A DNA stretch of 64,000 bases. It comes from Alphaproteobacteria bacterium (GTDB lineage: Bacteria > Planctomycetota > Phycisphaerae > UBA1845). The notes beneath the pieces are model-generated. The model had not been told where the DNA came from. It did not search any database and worked only from the letters and a program-made list of their open reading frames with translations. The stretch spans positions 819,856 to 883,855 of the forward strand of contig JANQQE010000011.1 of NCBI GenBank assembly GCA_028285105.1, read 5' to 3'. This document shows, piece by piece, positions 43,657 through 44,460 of the stretch. The number at the start of each line of letters is the position of its first letter. The first letter of the stretch is position 1. Both the position numbers and the translations under genes were made by a program.

Positions 43657-43684
43657 TTGCATGCGCACCATTGTGTTGTATACT
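43657..43684 (+). promoter_or_regulatory. Predicted promoter of the leader/tRNA locus
   Basis: A near-consensus pair TTGCAT - 16 bp - TATACT predicts a start at about 43691, just before a ribosome site and the leader peptide. The ~150 bp between 43536 and 43690 show no gene. Confidence 0.5.
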
Positions 43685-43704
43685 TCCAGCAGAGGTACAC
43701 ATTC

Positions 43705-43764
43705 ATGAATCGCAACGCGCTATATTATTATTTACCGCTGCTGCCCGGAGGTGGGTTCGCCTAG
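43705..43764 (+). CDS. Putative leader peptide rich in Leu and Tyr codons
   Basis: A 19-residue frame, MNRNALYYYLPLLPGGGFA, with AGAGG 9 nt upstream of the ATG. Codons run CTA, TAT x3, TTA, CCG, CTG, CTG. It ends 38 bp before a strong terminator hairpin, the layout of a transcription-attenuation leader. The next features downstream are tRNAs with anticodons TAG and TAA that read CTA and TTA, and a GTA-bearing tRNA-like element. That the leader senses those tRNAs is inference. I could not find a convincing antiterminator pairing. Confidence 0.45.
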   Translation: MNRNALYYYLPLLPGGGFA

Positions 43765-43801
43765 ATTGCGCGCGATGATTCTTTAGTTGCAGGTGCGATG
43801 T

Positions 43802-43833
43802 CTCGGTGGTTCTCACAACGACCGAGGCTTTTT
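43802..43833 (+). terminator. Rho-independent terminator after the leader peptide
   Basis: CTCGGT (43802-43807) pairs with ACCGAG (43821-43826), followed by GCTTTTTTT. A second ACCGAG followed by six T lies at 43887-43898, offering an alternative partner for the same CTCGGT. Confidence 0.75.
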
Positions 43834-43982
43834 TTGTGTCCGCACGTTTCCAGGTGAACACACGCTGCCCAGGTCGTTCGACACACACCGAGTTTTTTAA
43901 TTCGCGTTAACGGTTGATTGGAAACAAGTCCAATTCACTGCACGGAGAATGTACATCTCGAATTTGGGTTTTACTTAAACGC

Positions 43983-44056
43983 GACCAGGTAGCCCAACTG
44001 GCAGAGGCACGGCGCTTAGAACGTCGGCAGTGTGGGTTCGACTCCCACCCTGGTCA
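43983..44056 (+). tRNA. Class-I-shaped tRNA with leucine anticodon TAG
   Basis: 74 nt. Acceptor GACCAGG/CCTGGTC, discriminator A, 3-bp D stem, anticodon stem CGGCG/CGTCG with loop CTTAGAA (anticodon TAG), a 5-nt variable loop (GCAGT), T arm GTGGG TTCGACT CCCAC. Bacterial tRNA-Leu normally has a long variable arm; this one does not. The amino acid it carries is therefore uncertain, though A73 is a leucine identity base. Confidence 0.8.
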
Positions 44057-44086: not shown

Positions 44087-44160
44087 TGCCGGGTAGCCCA
44101 ATTGGCAGAGGCACTCGATTTAAGCTCGAGCAGTTGAGGGTTCGACTCCCTCCCCGGCGA
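44087..44160 (+). tRNA. Class-I-shaped tRNA with leucine anticodon TAA
   Basis: 74 nt. Acceptor TGCCGGG/CCCGGCG, A73, anticodon stem CTCGA/TCGAG with loop TTTAAGC (anticodon TAA), 5-nt variable loop CAGTT, T arm GAGGG TTCGACT CCCTC. The same anticodon is on a normal long-arm tRNA-Leu at 57699-57782, so decoding is duplicated. Confidence 0.8.
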
Positions 44161-44180: not shown

Positions 44181-44254
44181 GGCTGAGTAGCCCAATCGGC
44201 AGAGGCGCTCGATTCAAAATCGAGTCGTTGGGGGTTCGACTCCCCCCTCAGCCA
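44181..44254 (+). tRNA. Class-I-shaped tRNA with leucine anticodon CAA
   Basis: 74 nt. Acceptor GGCTGAG/CTCAGCC, A73, anticodon stem CTCGA/TCGAG with loop TTCAAAA (anticodon CAA, reads TTG), 5-nt variable loop TCGTT, T arm GGGGG TTCGACT CCCCC. It shares the same D-arm sequence as its neighbours. Confidence 0.8.
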
Positions 44255-44279: not shown

Positions 44280-44354
44280 GCGGTGGTAGCCCAATTGGCA
44301 GGAGGCACGAGAATGAGGTTCTCGACAGTGTGGGTTCGAATCCCTCCCACCGCA
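44280..44354 (+). tRNA. Class-I-shaped tRNA with leucine anticodon GAG
   Basis: 75 nt. Acceptor GCGGTGG/CCACCGC, A73, anticodon stem CGAGA/TCTCG with loop ATGAGGT (anticodon GAG, reads CTC), 5-nt variable loop, T stem GTGGG/CCCTC with one T-T mismatch. The D loop is one base longer than in the other three. Confidence 0.72.
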
Positions 44355-44374: not shown

Positions 44375-44460
44375 GGGAACTGTTCCTCACGGCGGATTGT
44401 AATCCCGTTGTCGAAAAACAGTGAGGTGGCCGACAAGAGGTTCAATTCCTCCAGTTCCCA
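44375..44460 (+). tRNA. Degenerate tRNA-like element with long variable region
   Basis: 86 nt. The 7-bp acceptor GGGAACT/AGTTCCC is perfect, A73 present, T arm GAGG TTCAATT CCTC intact. The core is non-canonical. GTA appears in a GGATTGTAATCC hairpin; a TTGTCG/CGACAA stem and a CCTCAC/GTGAGG complementarity also form. It could be a decayed or rearranged tRNA-Tyr-like gene. Isoacceptor identity is not assigned. Confidence 0.35.

Follow-up and report, generated by a model that had tools for sequence, protein, structure and literature searches.

The window, i.e., the whole stretch of 64,000 nucleotides analysed here, very probably carries an operon of auxiliary tRNA genes whose transcription is attenuated in a ribosome-dependent manner, and in which a leader peptide would sense the decoding of Leu and Tyr codons; no RNA or ribosome data are at hand for this reading. 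Attenuators that sense tRNA charging are known to control enzyme output, and here the output would be the very tRNA isotype that is sensed, which would make a closed loop on decoding capacity. The first-pass annotation of this DNA had proposed that the array is attenuated by ribosome stalling in response to the supply of its own tRNAs. This proposal is now supported by the match between leader and array, by synonymous changes in the Leu codons, by an antiterminator, and by short gaps between terminator and tRNAs, and it has become a strong inference, made without transcript or stalling data. An operon with the order promoter, leader, terminator and tRNAs was found in the window and in 11 other genomes, which represent at least five families and several classes of the phylum.

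Leader, promoter and terminator

The putative elements that form the operon in the window are listed in Table 1. The promoter, the ribosome binding site and the 19-codon frame with its CTA, three TAT, TTA and two CTG codons had already been recognized in the first-pass annotation, as had the T-tailed hairpin that follows the leader, and all of them were recovered where it had placed them. Regarding the tRNAs, its CTA- and TTA-reading genes and the GTA-containing element were correct, and the Leu CAA and Leu GAG genes have to be added.

Table 1. Location of the predicted elements of the tRNA operon within the window
Feature	Position	Strand	Basis
Promoter TTGCAT-16-TATACT (TTGCAT 43657-43662, TATACT 43679-43684)	43657..43684	+	Sequence
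Ribosome binding site AGAGG	43691..43695	+	Sequence
Leader peptide ORF MNRNALYYYLPLLPGGGFA, 19 codons, ATG at 43705, stop TAG at 43762-43764	43705..43764	+	Sequence; leaders of relatives
Regulatory codons CTA TAT TAT TAT TTA (Leu, three Tyr, Leu), then CCG CTG CTG	43720..43734	+	Sequence
Antiterminator strand GCCCGG..GTGGG.TCGCC.AGAT, pairs with 43800-43828	43743..43766	+	Constrained folding, invariant nucleotides, shuffle tests
Hairpin from leader stop to terminator	43765..43799	+	Fold
Intrinsic terminator: imperfect stem 43800-43828, CTCAC loop, T7 at 43829-43835	43800..43835	+	Folds; genus-wide invariance
Covarying hairpin, then invariant 18-nt GCACGGAGAATGTACRTC, directly 5' of first tRNA	43912..43957	+	Three-genome alignment, genus
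Class I-shaped tRNA-Leu (UAG)	43983..44056	+	ARAGORN, alignment
Class I-shaped tRNA-Leu (UAA)	44087..44160	+	ARAGORN, alignment
Class I-shaped tRNA-Leu (CAA)	44181..44254	+	ARAGORN, alignment
Class I-shaped tRNA-Leu (GAG)	44280..44354	+	ARAGORN, alignment
D-armless pseudoknotted tRNA-Tyr (GUA)	44375..44460	+	Covariation over relatives

A consensus scan of the window listed neither the leader promoter nor the terminator hairpin, and the numbers of promoter-like sites (1 versus 3.1 expected) and terminator-like sites (5 versus 5.7 expected) were not remarkable. By the scan alone these two elements are not above chance; it is their conservation, as judged from the aligned sequences, that lifts the feature above it. 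In the window the terminator hairpin starts 35 nt 3' of the leader stop, and when 36 further tRNA genes of the same genome were checked, only two proved to be preceded, within 250 nt, by a hairpin with a T tail.

The order of leader, terminator and array is complete in two further genomes of the genus, G004 and G002. Their leaders, MNRNALYYYLLLLPGGGFA and MNRNALHFDLQNYYLLNLPGGGTA respectively, precede Leu and Tyr arrays, and that of G002 has an in-frame insertion of 15 nt that shifts the codon run. A search of the family with the leader pattern gave only two matches, because this insertion is longer than the gap that was allowed. Neither the terminator stem nor the T-run varies across the genus, and the same is true of CCCGGAGGTGG, a segment of the leader; the promoter -10 is kept in one relative, G004. 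Alignment with the relatives bears out the first-pass annotation with regard to the leader codons and the first hairpin; the second ACCGAG-T6 copy (approx. 43887-43898), which it had offered as an alternative hairpin, is present in the window and absent from both relatives of the same genus, and was discarded. The antiterminator is predicted instead to be formed by the last codons of the leader and the stop region.

The operon in distant relatives

A covariance model of the fifth element of the array, the one that resembles tRNA-Tyr, allowed the operon to be located in other families and classes. Besides the two relatives of the genus, a leader and a hairpin were found in nine genomes that belong to other families (Table 2).

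Table 2. Predicted leaders and arrays of operons outside the genus
Genome	Leader	Array
G102	MTNFAVYYGLLNLLRGGTA	Leu UAA, UAG, CAA, GAG and Tyr
G087	MKKFAVYYFLLTLLRGGTV	Leu CAG, GAG and Tyr
G172	MNRESCKPSYRLLTTGRSVG	Leu CAG, GAG and Tyr
G103	MKTPCEARAFYYYRHLRLKAG, Tyr run without Leu run	Tyr alone, without a further tRNA detected in 6 kb
G101	G103 type, Tyr run lost or eroded	
G167	MTRARFTFAYRLTLLGSDGWCMD, Phe codons	Phe, Tyr, Leu CAG, Leu GAG
G433	MMIACSYTLLVSLLAGGCGGMG, Cys and Ser codons	Leu, Tyr, Leu, Cys, Ser, Ser
G526	MKTWTLYLTLTGSGLGLGGGDGTG	Leu, Tyr, Leu, Ser
G634	MATRTSYSTLTCSGTSLGDGIGTG	Leu, Tyr, Leu, then contig end

Across independent lineages the sequences reveal that in most operons the codons of the leader follow the isotypes of its own array, this agreement being weak in G101, G172 and G634. 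The composition of the leader is individually significant for the window, G004, G002, G087, G102, G103 and G433; taken alone, it is not significant for G101, G172, G167, G526 and G634. The leader frames were picked by position and their codons were also inspected, and a degree of bias in their selection may therefore exist. Between the leaders of G087 and G102, each of the four Leu codons has changed and still encodes Leu. When the codons with a single change were pooled from this pair and from the pair formed by the window and G004, nine synonymous and four non-synonymous changes were counted (P 0.002); no excess of synonymous changes was detected for the pair G103/G101. The anatomy of the operon, its conservation and the correspondence between leader and array are established by these comparisons.

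Other elements of the operon are likewise found at comparable positions. In most of the 12 operons a -35/-10 pair ends 7-27 nt before the leader ATG, and the fit is best in six of them, which score 10 or more out of 12 positions once the spacing bonus is included. The distance from leader to terminator is 19-51 nt, and both this spacing and the promoter are retained over class-level distances.

The distance from the terminator to the first tRNA of the array bears on a different explanation, i.e., that the leader and the terminator are a separate unit (a small RNA or a peptide gene) and that the tRNAs are expressed from their own promoter located after the terminator. A gap of 123-154 nt in the genus of the window is compatible with this idea, as is the presence, within the gap, of the conserved covarying hairpin and the invariant 18-nt motif. 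However, G433 has a gap of only 16 nt and G172 one of 31 nt, both too short for a second promoter; in addition, the consensus scan did not find a promoter between the terminator and the first tRNA of the window, and the codons of the leader track the isotypes of the array in independent lineages. For these reasons we consider a separate unit quite improbable.

As a separate observation, the sequence TTTGACAACT is found right after the attenuator terminator in L343, L344 and L346; it presumably resembles boxA, which serves antitermination in rRNA operons.

Predicted competing structures of the leader RNA

When the terminator of the window was forbidden in a constrained folding, the antiterminator strand paired with the sequence of the terminator to give a structure of -32.2 kcal/mol versus -34.3 kcal/mol for the terminator state. 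The predicted pairings are GCCCGG with CCGAGGC, GTGGG with the loop CTCAC, TCGCC with GGTGG, and AGAT with GTCT. The loop of the terminator of G004 is CCCGC, and its pairing with GTGGG is preserved; in the relatives the codon run also keeps its position relative to the antiterminator.

Folding with the RNA free to pair on both sides of the ribosome was noisy, and two restricted models were clearer: an equilibrium model, in which only the RNA downstream of the stalled ribosome is folded, and a co-transcriptional model, in which the RNA is folded only as far as the loop of the terminator. According to the equilibrium model, the probability of the terminator in G004, G002, G087, G103 and G167 is approx. 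0-0.2 with the ribosome at the Leu/Tyr run, and 0.94-0.98 with the ribosome near the stop. In this model the drop tracks the shifted run of G002, it falls at the YYY of the G103 leader, and in G167 the transition is sharp, with its limit just past the last Leu codon. The switch of the window is weaker, given that its terminator probability goes down only to approx. 0.3, and with some footprints only. The terminators of G102 and G172 are too stable to be displaced at equilibrium, and these leaders would switch only co-transcriptionally.

In the co-transcriptional model, the 5' arm of the terminator was captured in 12 of 12 leaders with the ribosome at the run, and was freed (0.00) with the ribosome at the stop. 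The capture was compared with that of dinucleotide shuffles, and for six leaders combined a Fisher P of 3e-5 was obtained. For the three leaders of family f50 the capture was no stronger than in the shuffles (approx. 100/400 each), and for the window the effect was modest (27/1000 in one test and 40/400 co-transcriptionally). A competing antiterminator is therefore present, as far as the folding models go, in every leader that was modelled, in some of them only co-transcriptionally or no better than in shuffled sequences.

Proposed mechanism of attenuation

Leader translation, stalling, read-through, the charging of the array tRNAs with Leu and Tyr and the feedback are all inferred, and the following sequence of events is proposed. 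RNA polymerase would start at approx. 43691, and a ribosome would follow on the leader. If charged Leu- and Tyr-tRNA are plentiful, the ribosome would reach the stop codon and cover 43743-43766, and the hairpin at 43800-43828 would then terminate transcription. If the decoding of Leu or Tyr fails, the ribosome would stall at CTA-TAT-TAT-TAT-TTA, the end of the leader would capture the 5' arm of the terminator, and transcription would read through into the four tRNA-Leu genes and the tRNA-Tyr gene. Whichever of the sensed codons the ribosome stalled on, the whole array would be expressed, and the new tRNAs would restore decoding and turn the operon off again, i.e., a negative feedback.

The principle of the attenuator, in which read-through depends on a stalled ribosome, is well described (PMC1183508). 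The attenuators of the amino-acid operons (trp, his, leu, ilv and thr) and of pheST likewise have a short codon-rich leader ORF, a competing antiterminator and an intrinsic terminator; the amino-acid operon attenuators, however, control enzymes, whereas the genes controlled here would be tRNAs of the sensed isotypes, and the loop would act on tRNA supply. T-box riboswitches also respond to the charging of tRNA and act through an intrinsic terminator, but they bind the tRNA directly, without a translated leader, in contrast to the coding leader of this operon. A T-box or another leader of Rfam was considered and rejected for the window and six relatives, given that there was no Rfam match above threshold; the leader of G433 gave a weak score of 31.1 bits (E 0.046) against the Thr operon leader of Rfam, for which the cut-off is 55. 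Literature searches, which left subscription papers and preprints outside their scope, did not reveal a description of an attenuated tRNA operon.

Short tRNA-Leu genes

The four tRNA-Leu genes of the array have 74-75 nt and a variable region of 4-5 nt. In comparison with canonical class II tRNA-Leu, they share the anticodons, A73, and the acceptor, anticodon and T arms, but lack the long variable arm. The Leu features A14, A15, G18G19, U48, A73, the anticodon and the D-loop are retained, and pair 1-72 of the UAA tRNA covaries over the three genomes of the genus (T.G, G-C and A-T). The genome of the window also encodes, elsewhere, a separate set of ordinary Leu tRNAs of class II as well as a tRNA-Tyr of normal build, and the array is therefore extra. 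The differences between these host tRNAs and those of the array are mainly in the variable and D arms; regarding the anticodon loops, some differ, e.g., that of the UAA tRNA (TTTAAGC versus TTTAAAA in the host), and others are identical, e.g., that of the CAA tRNA.

These genes are members of a large family, recognizable by the signature TAGCCCAAYTGGCAGAGGCA, which is found in many Actinomycetota, in a few other phyla and in many phage contigs. The family contradicts the statement, made in a 2023 review, that the long variable arm of tRNA-Leu is retained everywhere but in animal mitochondria (PMC9976931). No leader was found before the short tRNA-Leu genes of Actinomycetota, nor before single ones in genomes of the same order; therefore, members of this tRNA family do not in general come with a leader.

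Some members of this family and other tRNA-Leu genes were noted in passing. The class I-shaped tRNA-Leu genes of 74-77 nt with TAGCCCAAYTGGCAGAGGCA are widespread in Actinomycetota, i.e., in Nocardia, Mycobacterium, Corynebacterium, Arthrobacter and others (L085-L203). The short tRNA-Leu (GAG) of G526 (L343, 2674-2794) has a hairpin insert of approx. 50 nt in the variable region and is missed by ARAGORN. A Myxococcales metagenome contig (L144, reverse strand, approx. 1560-2060) contains arrayed tRNA-Leu genes with T-loop inserts of approx. 75 nt that share ACTAGGGTCCTGCGGACCCG, apparently an intron-like family.

A tRNA-Tyr without a D-arm

The last gene of the array was not detected by ARAGORN and scored far below the gathering thresholds of Rfam. 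It retains the acceptor, anticodon (CUGUAAA in most genomes) and T arms, and a linker of 10 nt replaces the D-arm. Six bases of this linker pair with the loop of the long variable arm, and the pair changes from one genome to another (CCTCAC/GTGAGG, CCCCAC/GTGGGG, CCTCGC/GCGAGG, CCCCGC/GCGGGG, CCCGCA/TGCGGG and others); in the window CCTCAC (44385-44390) pairs with GTGAGG of the variable-arm loop, and TGTCG with CGACA. The stem of the variable arm also covaries, and in nine sequences none of 500 shuffles showed as many double changes as were observed. This covariation indicates that linker and variable arm make a pseudoknot in place of the D-arm. The loss of the D-arm is shared with an engineered tRNA-His (PMC11551756) and with mitochondrial tRNA-Ser; unlike in these tRNAs, a covarying pseudoknot to the loop of the variable arm would substitute for it. 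The array tRNA-Tyr shares with canonical tRNA-Tyr the anticodon, A73, and the acceptor, anticodon and T arms.

The identity elements of tRNA-Tyr, as reviewed in PMC9976931, i.e., GUA, A73, G1-C72 and the long variable arm, are present in the window and in most relatives; the exceptions are A1-U72 in G101, G103 and G433, and the anticodon GCA in the truncated copy of G001. According to a study from 2024, every tRNA known from bacteria is a cloverleaf (PMC11551756), and the D-armless pseudoknotted tRNA-Tyr contradicts this statement. Natural bacterial tRNAs without a D-arm were not described in the literature searched, subscription papers and preprints having been outside the search.

An exact pattern of the tRNA-Tyr of the window gave no match in viral contigs, and a looser one detected D-armless tRNA-Tyr genes in seven of them (L358-L364). 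Most of these viral genes encode the CCA and are part of large arrays of phage tRNAs, with no other tRNA-Tyr detected nearby by ARAGORN; this argues for a working tRNA-Tyr, its charging being inferred. The annotation of the tRNA sets of phages will miss this kind of tRNA.

The viral genes raise the possibility that the operon is what is left of a phage tRNA array and is no longer regulated, its resemblance to an attenuated operon being incidental. In agreement with this, besides the seven viral contigs with D-armless tRNA-Tyr, the short tRNA-Leu genes are present in phages of Rhodococcus, Streptomyces and Erwinia and in more than 100 viral contigs, no leader is visible in front of the large arrays of G718, G755, G605 and G595, and truncated or degenerate copies occur (L004 and L005). 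On the contrary, the acceptor and other stems of the tRNAs covary between genomes, and the tRNAs are therefore under selection; furthermore, the leader, the promoter and the terminator spacing have been kept over class-level distances, so a remnant appears very improbable.

Two minor observations concern other arrays. Chromosomal arrays of at least 17 tRNAs (L337, L355, L356 and L357), for which no leader was seen, include D-armless tRNA-Tyr genes and odd members, e.g., a Cys tRNA with the anticodon ACA. In a prophage-like contig (L363, 3200-3950), the sequence MMMPNLQRSYLLYR, which contains codons for Leu, Gln and Tyr, may be the leader of an array of Leu, Leu, Tyr-like, Gln and Leu tRNAs; the hairpin there lacks a T-run and, as judged by eye, there is an integrase-like ORF nearby.

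Possible purpose of the operon

The condition that turns on the operon is the least certain part of the model. Loss of the Leu/Tyr tRNAs of the host, e.g., by tRNA-cutting toxins or phage-defence nucleases, is favoured as the trigger because extra tRNA cannot cure amino-acid starvation, and we hold this view with a confidence just short of even. It is conceivable, on a still more tentative basis, that this is an emergency operon for tRNA loss, whose attenuator monitors the decoding of selected codon families and releases unusual replacement tRNAs, namely the short tRNA-Leu and the pseudoknotted D-armless tRNA-Tyr, that would be functional in translation and poor targets for nucleases. If so, bacteria would have in this D-armless tRNA-Tyr, which is shared with phages, their first natural tRNA that is not a cloverleaf.

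Attenuation could also be correct and the operon nevertheless report Leu/Tyr starvation, in which case the tRNAs would be competitors, alternatively charged tRNAs or signals, and not replacements. The leader would indeed react whenever charged Leu- or Tyr-tRNA is short, whatever the cause, and the sensing of several amino acids together, which we count in favour of starvation, is normal for attenuator leaders, as in the ilv operon. However, the operon has no biosynthetic gene, extra uncharged tRNA would not relieve starvation, and the tRNAs retain the Leu and Tyr features described above, which makes starvation an unlikely purpose. The presence in a chromosome of phage-type tRNAs under a decoding sensor fits an emergency supply; this purpose is an inference, and the anatomy of the operon is better supported.

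Phage tRNA arrays have been proposed to evade host tRNA nucleases or to replace the tRNAs lost to them (PMC10264068, eLife 2023). The operon shares with these arrays the short tRNA-Leu and the D-armless tRNA-Tyr genes, but unlike them it is found in bacterial chromosomes, with few tRNAs of certain isotypes only and a dedicated attenuator in front. One phage array with short tRNA-Leu genes is located near genes for an RNA ligase and a polynucleotide kinase.
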